NCBI GenBank assembly: GCA_017471465.1 | Contig: JAFUTI010000009.1 | Location: forward strand, 1 to 64,000 | From: Prevotella sp. | GTDB taxonomy: Bacteria > Bacteroidota > Bacteroidia > Bacteroidales > Bacteroidaceae | Direction: 5' to 3' | Length of the DNA: 64,000 nt | Shown here: piece after piece, positions 3,509 through 61,804 of the stretch | How positions within the stretch are numbered: the first letter of the stretch is position 1 | Layout of the letters: each line of letters starts with the position of its first letter | Position numbers and translations under genes: made by a program | Notes under the pieces: model-generated | The model's input: only the letters and a program-made list of their open reading frames with translations | Database searches by the model: none | What the model was told of the DNA's origin: nothing

Positions 3509-5605
3509 ATGATGGAGATAAAAGACTTTACCATTACCAAGCGCGACGGTTCTAAGGATCGTTTCTCGCTTGACAAGATTATGAACGCTATTCTGAAGGC
3601 GTTTGAGAGTGTCGATGAACCAACAGACCTGGGGGCCATCTCGAAGATTATAAGCCACTTGGACATCAAGGACGATATTACGGTGGAGGATATTCAGAAC
3701 CAGGTTGAGGAAGCCCTGATGAGAGAGGGCTACTATAAGGTGGCAAAGTCTTTCATGCTCTATCGCCAGCAGCACACTGAAGACCGTGAGACGCTGGAGA
3801 AAATGATGTTCTTGTCGGAATACATGGAGTCGGTCAATGCTGCGACCGGCTCGAAGTATGATGCCAATGCCAACGTGGAGCACAAGAATATTGCCACGCT
3901 GATTGGCGAGTTGCCCAAGTCGAACTTCATCCGTCTGAACCGCCGTCTGCTGACCGAGCGTATCAAGAAGATGTACGGCAAGGAGCTTGCCGACAAGTAT
4001 ATTGACCTGCTGACCCACCACTTTATATACAAGAACGACGAGACGAGCCTTGCCAACTACTGTGCCTCGATTACGATGTATCCGTGGCTCATCGGCGGCA
4101 CGGTGGCCATTGGCGGCAACTCGACGGCTCCGACGAACCTGAAGTCGTTTGCAGGCGGATTTGTCAATATGGTGTTCATGGTCAGCTCGATGCTGAGCGG
4201 CGCCTGTGCAACGCCAGAGTTCCTGATGTATATGAACTACTTCATCGGCAAGGAGTATGGCACCGACTACTGGCAGCACCCCGACCAGCAGGCTGACCTG
4301 AGCTTGAAGAAACGTTCTATCGACAAGGTCATCACCGACTACTTCGAGCAGATTGTCTACACGCTGAACCAGCCTACCGGTGCCCGCAACTACCAGGCCG
4401 TCTTCTGGAACATTGCCTATTACGACCGTTACTATTTTGAGTCTATCTTCGGCGACTTCTACTTCCCCGACGGCTCGAAGCCCGACTGGGCCGGCCTTAG
4501 CTGGCTGCAGAAGCGCTTTATGAAGTGGTTCAACCATGAGCGCACGAAGACCATGCTGACATTCCCCGTGGAGACGATGGCTCTGCTCACCGATGAGAAT
4601 GGCGACTGCAAGGATCCCGAGTGGGGTGAGTTCACGGCCGAGATGTATTCAGAGGGTCACTCCTTCTTCACCTATATGAGCGACAACGCCGACTCACTGT
4701 CGTCGTGCTGTCGCCTGCGCAATGAGATTACCGACAACGGCTTCAGCTATACCCTTGGTGCCGGTGGCGTGTCGACGGGGTCTAAGTCGGTGCTGACCAT
4801 CAACCTGAACCGCTGCATCCAGTATGCCGTGAACCATAAGCTGGACTATCTGGAGTATCTTGGCGGTATCATCGACCTGTGCCACAAGGTGCAGACGGCA
4901 TACAACGAGAACCTGAAGGAACTACAGGAGCACGGTATGCTGCCACTCTTCGACGCCGGCTATATCAACATCGGCCGTCAGTATCTGACCATTGGCATCA
5001 ACGGTCTCGTCGAGGCCGCTGAGTTTATGGGTCTGAAGATCACCCCCAACGACGACTACCAGCACTTCGTGCAAGGCATCCTGGGGCTGATAGAGAAGTA
5101 CAACAAGCAGTATCGCACGAAGGAACTGATGTTCAACTGCGAGATGATACCTGCCGAGAATGTCGGTGTGAAGCATGCCAAGTGGGACCGTGAGGACGGT
5201 TATTTTGTGCCCCGCGACTGCTACAACTCCTACTTCTACGTCGTCGAGGACGACTCGCTCAGTGTCATTGATAAGTTCAAGCTCCATGGTCGTCCCTATA
5301 TCGAGCACCTCACCGGCGGTTCAGCCCTGCACATGAATCTTGACGAGCATCTGTCGAAGCAGCAGTACCTGCAGTTGCTGAAGGTGGCTGCCAAGGAAGG
5401 CTGCAACTACTTCACGTTTAACATCCCGAATACCATCTGTAACGAGTGTGGCACGATTGACAAGCGCTATCTGAAAGAGTGTCCCCACTGCCATTCCGCG
5501 AATGTGGACTATATGACGCGTATCATCGGATATCTGAAGCGCGTCTCAAACTTCTCGCAACCACGTCAGGAGGAGGCTGCCCGCCGCTATTACGCCCATG
5601 CTTAA
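3509..5605 (+). CDS. nrdD: Anaerobic (class III) ribonucleoside-triphosphate reductase
   Basis: A 698-residue NrdD, which makes deoxynucleotides from ribonucleotides under anaerobic conditions using a glycyl radical. It begins with an ATP-cone allosteric domain (about residues 3-95, opening ITKRDGSKDRFSLDKI), has the active-site cysteine region SSCCRLRN (about 394-401), a C-terminal zinc site made of CNEC and CPHC (about 644-665), and the glycyl-radical motif RIIGYL with Gly about 674. Length is normal for the family. A second ATG follows directly at 3512. It overlaps nrdG by 8 bp. Prevotella NrdD with an ATP cone is a known structural model, which supports the assignment. Confidence 0.97.
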   Translation: MMEIKDFTITKRDGSKDRFSLDKIMNAILKAFESVDEPTDLGAISKIISHLDIKDDITVEDIQNQVEEALMREGYYKVAKSFMLYRQQHTEDRETLEKMMFLSEYMESVNAATGSKYDANANVEHKNIATLIGELPKSNFIRLNRRLLTERIKKMYGKELADKYIDLLTHHFIYKNDETSLANYCASITMYPWLIGGTVAIGGNSTAPTNLKSFAGGFVNMVFMVSSMLSGACATPEFLMYMNYFIGKEYGTDYWQHPDQQADLSLKKRSIDKVITDYFEQIVYTLNQPTGARNYQAVFWNIAYYDRYYFESIFGDFYFPDGSKPDWAGLSWLQKRFMKWFNHERTKTMLTFPVETMALLTDENGDCKDPEWGEFTAEMYSEGHSFFTYMSDNADSLSSCCRLRNEITDNGFSYTLGAGGVSTGSKSVLTINLNRCIQYAVNHKLDYLEYLGGIIDLCHKVQTAYNENLKELQEHGMLPLFDAGYINIGRQYLTIGINGLVEAAEFMGLKITPNDDYQHFVQGILGLIEKYNKQYRTKELMFNCEMIPAENVGVKHAKWDREDGYFVPRDCYNSYFYVVEDDSLSVIDKFKLHGRPYIEHLTGGSALHMNLDEHLSKQQYLQLLKVAAKEGCNYFTFNIPNTICNECGTIDKRYLKECPHCHSANVDYMTRIIGYLKRVSNFSQPRQEEAARRYYAHA

Positions 5606-58326: not shown

Positions 58327-58887
58327 ATGGGAAAGGAAAACAAAGTATTTATATTCTGCATGATGCTGCTTACGGTTTTACCCACTTCAGCGCAACATGG
58401 CGATGCCCTTGATGACGTTTTGCAACACATCCCCATGGTTTCAGTGCTGATTCTGAAAGCATCAGGAGCACCAGACAATAATTCATGGGCTCTCACGCTG
58501 GGGACCTGCGCTGCCACTTATGTAGTTGGAACTGGAGCCACCTACGGATTAAAACACACGATGCATGAGTGGCGTCCCGACAACACCGACCACTATTCTT
58601 TTCCCTCCGGACATTCCATGTTTGCCTTTGCCGGAGCCACGGCCCTGCGTCATGAGTTTGGTCACTTGTCGCCTTGGGTGAGCATTGGCGGCTACGGGGT
58701 GGCTACATTCGTTGCCGTCGACCGCGTATGTCGTGACCGCCACTATGTACACGATGTGCTTGCCGGAGCTGCCATTGGTGCGCTCTCTGCCGAACTCTGC
58801 TTTTTCCTGAAGAACAAACTTTTCAAGCCAGAAGGCCTCGATTTGGCTTTCACGGGAACACAACTTGCCGTTAGCTACCGATGGTAA
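58327..58887 (+). CDS. PAP2 family phosphatase
   Basis: 186 residues. Signal peptide (CMMLLTVLPTSAQ) and the three PAP2 motifs: KHTMHEWRP (K-x6-RP), FPSGHS, and VCRDRHYVHD (R-x5-H-x3-D). Such enzymes remove phosphate from lipid phosphates such as undecaprenyl pyrophosphate or phosphatidate at the membrane or periplasm. The first ATG is at 58327; the earlier TTG at 58318 overlaps the McrC remnant stop. Intact, though surrounded by remnants. Confidence 0.85.
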   Translation: MGKENKVFIFCMMLLTVLPTSAQHGDALDDVLQHIPMVSVLILKASGAPDNNSWALTLGTCAATYVVGTGATYGLKHTMHEWRPDNTDHYSFPSGHSMFAFAGATALRHEFGHLSPWVSIGGYGVATFVAVDRVCRDRHYVHDVLAGAAIGALSAELCFFLKNKLFKPEGLDLAFTGTQLAVSYRW

Positions 58888-58895
58888 ATATTGAA

Positions 58896-59228
58896 AAATC
58901 AGCTTCAACAACGGCGAACTGGTGATGACCGGCGAGGACATCAACACCCTCGTGGAACAGCAGAGCAAGGCAGTACACCAAAGAGGAAATCAACGCGCTG
59001 CTTTCAAACATCCAGGGCGGAGTCACTCCCGACTTGTCCAACTATGTGACAAAAGAAGAGATGTATACTTATGTAAAAGGGACAACACAGGACTTACAAC
59101 TTCAGATACAAGCCCTCCAAGCGTATGCAGCTAATAATGCACAAGCAATTGCAGTTCTGAACCAGAAAGTCAATGCTTTAGATTCGAAAGTCGATGCTAT
59201 AAATGCAAAAGTCGATGCTATTCAATAA
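58896..59228 (+). pseudogene. Frameshifted coiled-coil protein remnant
   Basis: Reading FNNGELVMTGEDINTLVEQQ continues after a frame change near 58970 into YTKEEINALLSNIQGG and on to a C-terminal coiled coil with heptad-like repeats (LNQKVNALDSKVDAINAKVDAIQ) that ends at 59226-59228. No start or signal is present. It looks like the C-terminal part of a longer protein, possibly tail-fibre- or adhesin-like, and its stop overlaps the convergent GH2 gene. Confidence 0.5.
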
Positions 59229-61609
59229 TTGGGTGGTTGGGACAGGAATTTGTCAGTAGCCGACAGTGTGATGCGTGCTGTCTTCAGACCCTTGCCCTGC
59301 ACGGTTATCGTTGCCTTACCCTTCTTTCCTGTGCTCCTGACCACGAGCAGGGCACGGCCCTTCCAAGCCTTGTGCGTATTGTCGGTGTAGCGGTCGCAGT
59401 CCCTGATGTCGGCATTGCCGAAGCCGATAAGCGTAGCAGGACCGCTGACGGTAGCAGTCAGGTCGTTGGCGGCAAGAGCATTCAGGGTGCCTTGGACATC
59501 GGTCAGTTCGACGGTGATGAACGCCAGGTCCTGACCGTCGGCCTTGATGGTTGTGCGGTCGGCAGTCAGACGGATGGCCTTGGCTTCACCGGCTGTCTGC
59601 AGAGCGACTTTTTCCTCTCCTCCCATCCCCGACGTACCGTCGCCTACCCGTAGCCCTTCAGCACGGAGCGTGCCTGGCTGATAGGGTAGGGTAAACGTGG
59701 CCATCCCCTGCGCCACTTCTTTCTCGCCGATGAGCTGGTCGTTCAGGTAGAGTCGCACCTTGGGGTAGTGTGAATACACCTCCACGTCGATGTTCTTGCC
59801 CTCGTGTCCCGGCCACGTCCAACTCTCGTAGGTAGGCCATACGCTCCACTTCGTGGTATGGATTTTGCCGTAATATCCGTCAGGCTCGCGTACTGCCATG
59901 TAGAGCCGCATTCCCGACGTACCGTCGCCTACCCGTAGCCTTTCGCCATCCTTATTGTACAGCATGGAACGGTAGTGGCTGATAGGCTTGCGCTGACCGG
60001 TGAGGTCGATGTCGCCGCAGTAGGCGGCGTGGTTGGGGAACATCGGACCTTGCCAAGGTTCATTGGTAGGTTCCCCCTCGTAATACCAGCGTCCGATGCC
60101 CGACTCTCCCAGGTAGTCGATGGCCGTCCACACAAAGTCGCCGATGACCCACGGCTCGTCCTGCACCTTGCGGTAGTTGCGCCAGGTGTCGCGCGAGTAG
60201 CTCTCCGTCTGCACCATCACCCGGCTGGGCACACGTTCGTGGTCGCCCTGCGATTTGTGGATCATGTAGTTGTAGCCCACGATGTCGTGCTCGGCAGCCA
60301 GCGGGTCGTAAATGTCCCATTCGGGGTCCCAGGCGCAGAGCGCGGAAGTGACCGGACGTTTCTGGGGGTCGAACTGCCGGCAGAGGGTGTTCAGGTTGTG
60401 GGCGGTCTTCACCACCTCAATCTTCTTGCGCTCGATGACTTCGTTGCCCGTTGACCAGCAGAACACGCTGGGGTGGTTGCGGTCGCGCAGCACCATTGCC
60501 CGTATGTCCTCTTGCCACCACTGGTCGATGAGCGTGGAATAGTCGTAGGTGTTCTTCTTGTCGCGCCACCCGTCGAAAGCCTCGTCGATGACCAGCAGTC
60601 CCAGTTCGTCGCAGGCCCTGAGGAAGGCCTCTGAAGGCGGATTGTGCGACGTGCGGATGGCGTTGAAGCCCGCCTCTTTCAGCAGGCGTACGCGGCGGTA
60701 TTCGGCAGCATCGAAGGCACGGGCGCCCAGGATGCCGTTGTCGTGGTGTACGCAGCCGCCATTGAGCACGATAGGCTGGCCGTTGAGTAACAGCCCCTTT
60801 TCGGCGGAGTAATCGATGGTGCGGATGCCATACGTGACGGGTACGACATCACCCATTCCCGACGTCTCGTCGCCCCCCCGTAGTCCTTCCGCTTCAATGG
60901 TCGTATGGTAAAGATAGGGATCGTCGGGCGACCACAGGTGAGGATTCTCCACATGAATGGTCTTCTCGATGGGTTTCCGTGAGCCATCCTCCATCACAAC
61001 CTCAGCCTTGATTTCTACCGTGTGAATGTCGGGCGTGGCTACGCTGACGCTCCATTCGTCGATGTAGCGCTTGCCAGTGGTCAGCAGCCACACATGACGG
61101 TAGATGCCCGAACCGCTATACCATCGGCAGTTCTTCTGCTGTGAGTTGTCGACTCGTACCTCCACCTCGTTCTGCCCCGGCTTCACGTAGGGTGTGATGT
61201 CCACGAAGAACGAGGAATAGCCGTAGGGATGACCACCAGCCCGCTGTCCGTTCACATAGACTTCGGCATTCATATACACACCCTCGAAGTAGAGGCGCAG
61301 TGTCTTATCTTTAAACTTTAAACTTTCAACTCTAAACAGTTTCCTATACCAGCCCTTGCCCGTTGGCAGATAGGCTCCGTCGTGACCGGCAGGCGCATCT
61401 TTGTCGAAGTCACCCTCAATACTCCAGTCGTGCGGCAGGTTGACCGTCCGCCAAGTTGTGCTGTCCCCAGAGAACTGCCAGTTGGCATCGAATAATTCTT
61501 GCCTTGCATGCGACCGGAGGTCGTTCGGCTTGCGGGCCATACCATGACTGGCACCCAAGGCAGTACCTGCCATCAGTAAAGCTGTAAAAAGAACTACAAT
61601 CTGTTTCAT
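59222..61609 (-). CDS. Beta-galactosidase, GH2 family, with three in-frame repeat insertions
   Basis: 795 residues. Signal peptide, GH2 jelly roll (about 38-185: ANWQFSGDSTTWRTVNLPHDWSIEGDF), Ig-like part, barrel with acid/base Glu in STGNEVIE (about 391) and nucleophile Glu in MVQTESYSRD (about 467), then DUF4982 and C-terminal Ig-like domains. Three short segments of type EGLRVGDGTSGMG interrupt it at residues about 239-252, 554-567 and 649-662, all in loops, from a repeated DNA element. The frame is kept each time. The start at 61609 fits the promoter at 61637-61644. Confidence 0.92.
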   Translation of the reverse strand: MKQIVVLFTALLMAGTALGASHGMARKPNDLRSHARQELFDANWQFSGDSTTWRTVNLPHDWSIEGDFDKDAPAGHDGAYLPTGKGWYRKLFRVESLKFKDKTLRLYFEGVYMNAEVYVNGQRAGGHPYGYSSFFVDITPYVKPGQNEVEVRVDNSQQKNCRWYSGSGIYRHVWLLTTGKRYIDEWSVSVATPDIHTVEIKAEVVMEDGSRKPIEKTIHVENPHLWSPDDPYLYHTTIEAEGLRGGDETSGMGDVVPVTYGIRTIDYSAEKGLLLNGQPIVLNGGCVHHDNGILGARAFDAAEYRRVRLLKEAGFNAIRTSHNPPSEAFLRACDELGLLVIDEAFDGWRDKKNTYDYSTLIDQWWQEDIRAMVLRDRNHPSVFCWSTGNEVIERKKIEVVKTAHNLNTLCRQFDPQKRPVTSALCAWDPEWDIYDPLAAEHDIVGYNYMIHKSQGDHERVPSRVMVQTESYSRDTWRNYRKVQDEPWVIGDFVWTAIDYLGESGIGRWYYEGEPTNEPWQGPMFPNHAAYCGDIDLTGQRKPISHYRSMLYNKDGERLRVGDGTSGMRLYMAVREPDGYYGKIHTTKWSVWPTYESWTWPGHEGKNIDVEVYSHYPKVRLYLNDQLIGEKEVAQGMATFTLPYQPGTLRAEGLRVGDGTSGMGGEEKVALQTAGEAKAIRLTADRTTIKADGQDLAFITVELTDVQGTLNALAANDLTATVSGPATLIGFGNADIRDCDRYTDNTHKAWKGRALLVVRSTGKKGKATITVQGKGLKTARITLSATDKFLSQPPNY
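59622..59662 (-). repeat. In-frame repeat element, copy A
   Basis: About 41 bp inside the GH2 gene encoding EGLRVGDGTSGMG. Its core CGACGGTACGTCG is nearly palindromic. Differs from copy B at about two bases over 36. Confidence 0.8.
59909..59947 (-). repeat. In-frame repeat element, copy B
   Basis: About 39 bp inside the GH2 gene encoding ERLRVGDGTSGM. Falls between residues that read together as a normal ERLYMAVREPDG segment of the family. Confidence 0.8.
60852..60892 (-). repeat. In-frame repeat element, copy C
   Basis: About 41 bp inside the GH2 gene encoding EGLRGGDETSGMG. The most diverged copy, with changes at the centre of the palindromic core. Confidence 0.75.
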
Positions 61610-61636
61610 CTTTATTTTTGTTTTATATACTGGCTG

Positions 61637-61644
61637 CAAAATTA
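61637..61644 (-). promoter_or_regulatory. -7 promoter element for GH2 gene (TAATTTTG)
   Basis: CAAAATTA on the plus strand, 28 bp upstream of the ATG at 61609. Confidence 0.55.
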
Positions 61645-61804
61645 CTCATTTATTCTTAAATTCATTCCCATAGATGTATCATGTTTTTTATTCTTTGTAT
61701 CAGTCCCCCCAACAGTTTACCTAAGAGTTGCGATAATAATGAAACTTTTAATTCGGAAATGAAAGAAAAAAAGATTTTTCTTTGTATTTCTCTCACTTAT
61801 TTCG

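Follow-up and report, generated by a model that had tools for sequence, protein, structure and literature searches.

The window analysed here is a stretch of 64,000 nucleotides from Prevotella sp. (GenBank assembly GCA_017471465.1, contig JAFUTI010000009.1, positions 1 to 64,000), and the subject of this study is a short repeat that occurs three times within one of its genes, which codes for a GH2 β-galactosidase-like protein. The repeat is probably a non-autonomous mobile micro-element that makes clean, in-frame insertions, is found both between and inside genes and, in the latter case, is read as a loop of the host protein. Judged from the sequences compared, the GH2 gene appears to have received three insertions of this one dispersed element.

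Three insertions in a GH2 gene

A previous reading of the window, made from its sequence alone, had placed three copies of the repeat inside one GH2 gene. This is borne out by a single open reading frame (ORF) on the minus strand, which is assigned to GH2 by its similarity to solved enzymes. The repeat had been described as a unit of about 40 bp. Its nature as a repeated in-frame unit stands, but the inserted part measures only 33 nt. The features of the gene are as follows.

59222..61609, minus strand: GH2 β-galactosidase-like gene with three inserts, 795 aa when started at ATG or 805 aa when started at the TTG further upstream (61639); assigned by resemblance to solved GH2 enzymes
59625..59657, minus strand: copy A of the 33-nt element, adding 11 residues (GLRVGDGTSGM); differs from the usual sequence at two positions
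59658..59659, minus strand: target dinucleotide GA of copy A; from the sequence, the rule being taken from filled/empty comparisons
59630..59642, minus strand: hairpin of copy A, CGACG-GTA-CGTCG, 5-bp stem and 3-nt loop; covariation among 44 distinct copies
59910..59942, minus strand: copy B of the 33-nt element, adding 11 residues (RLRVGDGTSGM); match to the consensus
59943..59944, minus strand: target dinucleotide GA of copy B; basis as for copy A
59915..59927, minus strand: hairpin of copy B, CGACG-GTA-CGTCG; covariation
60855..60887, minus strand: copy C of the 33-nt element, adding 11 residues (GLRGGDETSGM), the most diverged of the three; exactly 11 residues more than orthologue L226
60888..60889, minus strand: target dinucleotide GA of copy C; basis as for copy A
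60860..60872, minus strand: hairpin of copy C, CGACG-AGA-CGTCG; covariation

The 36-nt frames of copies A, B and C lie at 59624-59659, 59909-59944 and 60854-60889 (minus strand). Copies A and B had been called nearly identical, and their identity is indeed 94%, while copy C shares 83% with copy A. A 21-nt core pattern with up to 3 mismatches matches three times in the window versus not at all in 100 shuffles.

All three inserts are absent from 23 of 23 aligned orthologues, a set that does not include L242 and L243, whose matches are partial or distant. Removal of 11 residues per site restores an orthologue-like protein with the junctions DGE|RLYMAVREPDG and LRAE|GGEEKV. At site 1, the window reads TTIEAE, the 11 residues and then GDVVPVTYG, and orthologue L226 reads TTIEAEGDVLPVTYG. 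The sequence-only reading had likewise expected a normal GH2 protein after removal of the insert, and its example, ERL|YMAVREPDG, is correct to the codon. It had also allowed that the segments might turn out to be common to the orthologues, or that the core might be confined to this gene. Instead, the segments are missing at these positions, and the core recurs at four more places in the same genome (up to 3 mismatches), which holds 14 matches in total to a covariance model derived from 44 distinct copies.

The 33-nt unit and its target

The element is a 33-nt unit, AAGGCNACGGGTAGGCGASSNNNSSTCGGGAAT, equivalent to 11 codons, and its insertion point lies directly 3' of the dinucleotide (G/C)A. 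The comparison of filled with empty sites revealed neither duplication nor loss of the target. After removal of the 33 nt, 34 of the 50 copies having a homologous stretch fit it exactly, with no length difference, some sites being counted in more than one genome. Examples of empty sites are a CTP synthase gene (GACGA|G), a dihydrolipoyl-dehydrogenase-like gene (ATCGA|TGCC) and an intergenic palindrome (GGGGA|GGGG). The length is nearly fixed, as 150 of 153 copies found with a length-tolerant pattern measure 33 nt. The remaining three, at L073 (position 254), L090 (3830, minus strand) and L155 (2761, minus strand), are 32 nt long and have a 2-nt loop. The filled/empty fits and the fixed length together indicate that each insertion lengthens the sequence by 11 codons, directly behind (G/C)A and with the target left unduplicated.

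In a sequence logo of 151 non-nested copies (of 164), the first target base is G (0.87) or C (0.11) and the second is A (0.99). The constant part extends to GGGAAT and is followed by a G (0.78), beyond which the information fades. Conservation at the DNA level spans the whole unit, third codon positions included.

Some copies are nested. In three cases (L094, L096 and L163), the inner copy fits exactly to GGCGA|CC. Five further cases (L101, L108, L109, L134 and L172) were considered as a second source for the insertion rule and set aside, as they do not fit the GA rule. At these loci, the arms of the element are repeated (GAAAGGCTACGG units), in some of them with a second right half. Either tandem duplication or an unusual kind of nesting may have produced them, the duplication of an arm seeming as likely because L109 and L134 repeat the left arm alone.

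Hairpin and GTAG tag

The core of the repeat had been described as near-palindromic. This applies to a 5-bp stem with a 3-nt loop and not to the remainder. The stem, CGASS/SSTCG, varies by compensation. Among 44 distinct copies, 95.9% of the cells are paired and 25 cells are changed on both sides. The covariation of the stem amounts to 0.311, versus 0.074 in shuffles, none of 500 reaching the observed value, and no more than 0.045 in slid versions. Three pairs are changed on both sides, a number that 67 of 500 shuffles also reached. Of 224 fully paired copies, 130 have a loop of the GNA form, a type known for unusual stability in single-stranded DNA; this serves as a hint, not as a test.

A nearly invariant GTAG (G 0.98, T 0.97, A 0.97, G 1.00) precedes the stem, separated from it by one G, in agreement with the layout of GTAG-type repetitive extragenic palindromic (REP) sequences, which have GTAG or GTGG at 0-2 nt on the 5' side of a hairpin. 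GTAG does not form an end of the repeat, as 10 nt of the unit precede it. The consensus has no terminal inverted repeat, and the region 59200-61700 of the window gave no match in Rfam at gathering scores. With 5 bp, the stem is below the 7-20 bp of the search rule in PMC6006769 and inside the 5-13 bp range tabulated in PMC3733652.

Reading frame and selection

The frame of insertion was examined in 242 copies with distinct surroundings, of which 169 came from pattern searches and 73 were added later, nearly all by means of the covariance model. They divide into 99 copies in gene-like ORFs, 33 in weak ORFs and 110 outside, with in-gene shares of 81/169 in the first sample and 18/73 in the later one. 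Among the 99 in-gene copies, 83 are read in the ERLRVGDGTSGM frame ((E/Q)RLRVGDGTSGM), hereafter the main frame, four in KATGRRRNVGN, and seven and five in two open frames of the other strand. Merging homologous sites leaves 193 sites with 92 in genes, 77 of them in the main frame. The main phase would be expected in about 0.51-0.55 of insertions into the four open phases, based on (G/C)A phases in long ORFs or on random GA sites. The excess is strong in the whole set, with a binomial p of about 2e-10 for 83/99 and 1e-9 for the merged 77/92. The p-values of this analysis overstate the certainty, as copies within one genome are related.

A clearer result comes from the phase of the junctions that remain when the 33 nt are excised. 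The 89 junctions in gene-like ORFs are distributed over the open phases as 74, 3, 7 and 5, and none falls into the two phases in which the element would introduce a stop codon (stop phases), either in the first sample (n = 73) or in the later one (n = 16). As a control, 4000 random GA sites were taken from the same loci with the same classifier; 2601 were in gene-like ORFs and 1212 of those in stop phases. The contrast between 0/89 and 1212/2601 implies that the element is read through and not skipped, and that gene-breaking insertions are removed by selection.

At homologous sites of five loci (L058, L148, L160, L166 and L183), the element stands directly behind a putative TGA stop; L111 has TAA at this place.

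Host proteins and repeated insertion

A Pfam scan of 20 insert-bearing ORFs matched 18 of them and revealed unrelated conserved proteins as hosts. By named models, these include CTP synthase, peptide chain release factor 2 (RF2), alanyl-tRNA synthetase (AlaRS), the carbamoyl-phosphate synthase large subunit (CarB) and mannonate dehydratase; glutamine synthetase III is also among them. Besides the GH2 protein, the genome of the window (G000) has inserts in CTP synthase, a dihydrolipoyl-dehydrogenase-like oxidoreductase, an alpha-2-macroglobulin-like protein, a hemerythrin/LuxR protein and an AMP-binding enzyme. Two others of its 14 matches that were inspected lie outside genes (L325) and in a weak ORF (L326). 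The N-terminal domain of CTP synthase has one match each in G000 and in genome G158. This only CTP synthase found carries one insert in G000 and two in G158 (L323), at other positions.

One codon seems to have been filled repeatedly. In an outer-membrane-like gene, identified by reading only, the element occupies one and the same GA (PYE|Q) in L131, L132 and L182. Fourteen homologues are without it there, among them L384 with 89% identity and L391, which has additional residues of another kind. The site was readable in 18 of the 19 loci examined, and the gene was matched in 37 of 90 genomes. Repeated insertion is the simplest reading of these sequences, since L131 is far closer to the empty L384 than to the filled L182 (48%). 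At L147 (about 5200-5260), a CCCC/GGGG-type palindrome that encloses the 33-nt element lies in frame at this same PYE|Q codon.

At shared sites in general, the elements are identical at 31-33 of 33 positions and the flanks at 67-94% (15 of 17 pairs). The other two pairs, both with L172, agree at 1 of 33 positions, the nested copy being shifted. An old common insertion was considered as the source of this identity and rejected as unsafe, with the outer-membrane-like gene pointing to repeated insertion. The identity carries no weight in this question, because the copies were gathered by near-exact patterns, which favour intact ones.

The inserts of the GH2 protein may be placed in surface loops, as suggested indirectly by the length variation of the orthologues nearby. 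Indels within 3 residues of the three sites occur in 23/23, 9/23 and 4/23 orthologues, and the shares of all junctions reaching as many indels are 1.4%, 9.5% and 10.3%, respectively. The GH2 homologue L235 (genome G034) harbours other in-frame repeat peptides, of the PLPEREG and TPLPHREG types, at sites 2 and 3 of the window, which means that these loops take up further kinds of repeat in frame. Elsewhere in the GH2 coding sequence, an AT-rich AAAGTTTAAAGTTTAAAG run occupies 61305-61335, where the length of the orthologues varies by a few residues. Two 21-nt direct repeats, 81% alike, are located at 59165-59206, between the GH2 gene and an ORF ending at 58887.

Distribution

The genome of the window is a 2.4-Mb draft in 53 contigs and 63% complete. 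The 21-nt core with up to 3 mismatches is found there at seven places, versus one match of the reversed control. A looser pattern gave 59 matches versus 42 for its reversed control, and its 3-mismatch matches were not used. Other genomes were also to be searched for the core, according to the sequence-only reading, and the element is indeed widespread. A 30-nt pattern with up to 3 mismatches detected it in 20 of 149 genomes, the present one included, and the reversed control in none of the genomes listed. The covariance model (E <= 0.01) found it in 39 of 148 genomes, again including the present one, with 1 to at least 46 matches each. The high counts are lower bounds, as 46 equals the number of candidates scored. 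All carriers recognised by the covariance model belong to the genus of the window, and none to the other 58 genera of the order that were sampled.

A scan of named genomes yielded at least 120 stretches with the element. Among 80 loci listed, 79 bear the names Prevotella, Prevotellaceae, Bacteroides, Bacteroidaceae, Paludibacteraceae or Bacteroidales, and one is an "uncultured bacterium"; according to the record titles, many come from ruminants. Cultured carriers make up 3 of these 80, namely P. communis E15-14 with three copies on its complete chromosome, Prevotella sp. MA2016 with four and P. lacticifex with one. Two of these cultured-strain sites, that of P. lacticifex and the one of MA2016 in L107, lie inside genes. 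Locus L044, from the same-genus genome G041, shares 300 nt of identical flank with the P. lacticifex record L095, in support of Prevotella as the genus of the window.

The element is also present on 14 stretches of viral contigs (IMG/VR loci L248-L261), which suggests a route between hosts. In L248, the copy keeps the frame of a short ORF for which Pfam gave no match. A peptide search of phage records gave no match.

Proposed mechanism and points against it

The sequence comparisons show that copies of the 33-nt element land directly 3' of (G/C)A without duplication or loss. According to the proposed model, an inserted copy would be translated within its host protein and form a loop that the protein tolerates. 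Copies that break a gene would be purged, so that the intragenic set may be what selection has left. The element itself may move as a single-stranded DNA hairpin on which an HUH-type nuclease, of the kind represented by REP-associated tyrosine transposases (RAYTs) or IS200, acts in trans by cutting and joining. This route is suggested by the clean insertion after a short fixed sequence, the lack of a duplication and the small hairpin with GTAG 5' of its foot. HUH single-strand transposition leaves no target duplication. Transposases of the IS200/IS605 and RAYT groups use small hairpins and short fixed sequences in this manner (PMC6006769). The HUH step is put forward tentatively, with somewhat less than an even chance of being right; the rest of the model is independent of it.

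Several observations weigh against this account. Sixteen of the 50 filled/empty comparisons are not exact, six being off by 1 nt and ten by more; the larger misfits are mostly poor or nested alignments, plus one filled copy of the same place. The gene calls rely on an open frame and a codon score instead of annotation. The main-frame excess is weaker in the later copies alone, with 13/18 (p 0.05-0.09) in the non-overlapping set; the later count of 23/30 includes sites already seen. Profile searches for the Y1 transposase PF01797, which covered the genome of the window, the 148 genomes and 9 carrier genomes, did not find it in the former (63% complete) or in genome G150, despite 16 pattern matches in the latter. 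The element is likewise missing from the neighbourhood of 62 Y1 loci, examined over about 1.5 kb on either flank unless the contig ended earlier, with a best score of 19 of 28. These loci, 32 from carriers and 30 from best-scoring relatives, many of them non-carriers, stem from drafts and represent only part of the carriers' Y1 genes. Within the genus, Y1 is somewhat commoner among carriers, occurring in 29 of 39 genomes that hold the element versus 26 of 51 that lack it (Fisher p 0.03, completeness uncontrolled).

A RAYT gene adjoining the element was rejected as a candidate, since none was found beside any copy in the PF01797 searches and the scan of the 62 loci. At one Y1 locus, L265 (genome G156, Prevotella-labelled, contig 47, about 1100-1350, both strands), another hairpin repeat with a GTAG tag (GTAGGGACAGACC...) forms arrays, and the repeat and its Y1 gene look like a REP/RAYT unit.

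Copies outside genes may favour certain targets. The centre of an immediate inverted repeat (at least 5 bp) is occupied by 18 of 110 non-gene copies and 4 of 99 in-gene copies, compared with 1.8% of mismatched flanks, as if hairpin loops were good targets. Within the CGAGC subfamily, the loop is AAA (peptide GEQSSGM) in 12 of 15 main-frame in-gene copies, weak ORFs included, versus 4 of 47 outside genes (p 3e-7). In the commonest subfamily, CGACG-GNA-CGTCG, the variable loop base occupies the third position of a Gly codon. Both features could be signs of an element adapted to life within proteins, with 11 fixed codons, a (G/C)A target that is mostly the start of a Glu or Asp codon, and a main frame tuned to a bland glycine-rich loop. 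If this were true, tolerance by host proteins would be a selected trait of a transposable element. Such an adaptation is nevertheless rather doubtful, its standing being lowered by the weak main-frame excess of the non-overlapping later sample (13/18).

Alternative explanations

The segment could be spliced out of the mRNA or bypassed by the ribosome, so that the peptide would never be in the protein. Insertions in essential genes would be compatible with this, and a small hairpin within a coding sequence is the typical shape of hop or splice elements. Skipping, however, is indifferent to phase, yet the stop phases are empty in contrast to those of random GA sites, the length is divisible by three in 150 of 153 copies and no Rfam family matches the region 59200-61700; this explanation is very unlikely. 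A conserved functional motif of these proteins, or a tandem duplication within the GH2 gene, would account for the same peptide occurring three times in one protein. It is still less credible, as the peptide is missing from the 23 GH2 orthologues and present in unrelated proteins, 110 of the 242 copies are not in gene-like ORFs, the other strand is read in some cases, and the DNA is conserved over the whole unit including third codon positions. Least probable of all, to the point of being negligible, is an artefact in the assembly of metagenome-assembled genomes, even though these make up most of the carriers listed and the window itself comes from a 53-contig draft. Cultured strains carry the element, among them the complete chromosome of P. 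communis E15-14, and codon phase is respected, unlike what an artefact would produce.

The strongest alternative, with a chance not far below even, is that the repeat belongs to the GTAG superfamily of REP sequences, is merely more often intragenic than others and is moved by a RAYT (TnpA-REP) that went unrecognised, lies outside the drafts or has been lost. The nearly invariant GTAG one base 5' of the hairpin favours this view, as does the different GTAG-tagged repeat around the Y1 gene of G156. Intragenic REPs are on record in Opitutus terrae (PMC3733652), in-frame REPs exist within tnpA-REP genes of subclass 2.4, and a RAYT subclass of Bacteroidetes is flanked by atypical hairpins (both PMC6006769). 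The 5-bp stem is nevertheless shorter than the search rule of that paper permits, the unit begins 10 nt before GTAG, no copy adjoins a Y1 gene in the 62 loci, and G150 has many copies without a Y1 match. A mobile micro-element that inserts cleanly and is read in frame is still the preferred explanation.

Comparison with known systems

The sequence-only reading had compared the repeat with the Rickettsia palindromic elements (RPEs). These are dispersed palindromic elements found in frame in conserved protein genes, and for one RPE-bearing enzyme, Gmk, both translation and activity have been demonstrated, the substrate affinity being changed (PMC2229807). The element described here is also dispersed, hairpin-bearing and in frame within unrelated conserved protein genes, all 89 junctions being in open phases. 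The analogy is therefore supported as far as behaviour is concerned (in-frame intragenic insertion, conserved proteins, hairpin), common descent being outside that claim, and it does not extend to identity. The classical RPEs measure 105-146 bp and have terminal inverted repeats of about 12 bp (PMC2229807), and the intragenic CGTC repeats of R. conorii have been equated with the short classes RPE-4 and RPE-6 (PMC3733652). In contrast, the present unit has 33 nt, a single internal 5-bp hairpin, a GTAG instead of a CGTC tag and a defined (G/C)A target, and its hosts are Prevotella and other Bacteroidales. Going by the descriptions, it differs from the classical RPEs in sequence, size, terminal repeats and host.

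GTAG REPs are dispersed repeats, some of them intragenic, whose short-looped hairpin has GTAG at its foot and stem variants that compensate each other (PMC3733652, PMC6006769). The element shares all of these traits but differs in its short stem, the extra 10-nt 5' arm before GTAG, the absence of an adjacent RAYT in the 62 Y1 loci and its large share in ORFs (99/242, and 18/73 in the later sample). A 2013 survey names Bacteroidetes for CGTC and not for GTAG repeats (PMC3733652). The tnpA-REP genes of subclass 2.4, which is present in Bacteroidetes, hold REPs in frame (PMC6006769). Here, too, the reading frame is kept upon insertion, but the host is the transposase itself in subclass 2.4 and a housekeeping or metabolic gene in the present case.

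Prevotella harbours another high-copy repeat, PINSR of Prevotella intermedia and nigrescens, which is 188 bp long, intergenic and most likely non-coding (PMC4755523); the element discussed here is 33 nt long and often in genes. Miniature inverted-repeat transposable elements (MITEs) such as Correia, RU-1/ERIC and YPAL mostly have terminal inverted repeats and target duplications, span about 100-200 bp and are in some cases in frame within genes (PMC2229807). The element resembles them as small, non-autonomous mobile DNA that is partly read in frame. Unlike them, it lacks terminal inverted repeats in its consensus and target duplications in the 34 of 50 comparisons that fit, and it is far from their size.

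A search of the open-licence full-text literature, with preprints outside its scope, returned no description of the element, and exact motif strings retrieved unrelated titles only. The RPE phenomenon, best known from intracellular Rickettsia, is here seen in abundant gut bacteria. Prevotella and other Bacteroidales are not reduced intracellular bacteria. Because the unit is small and regular and many filled/empty pairs exist, its movement (enzyme and strand), the uptake of ready-made loops by proteins and the repeated use of one codon become testable. For annotators, a short peptide recurring across unrelated Prevotella proteins signifies an insertion and not a domain. As the size, structure and host of RPEs do not fit, nor do the end position and neighbouring gene of REPs, the element is best placed among the intragenic palindromic elements and in neither of these two groups.

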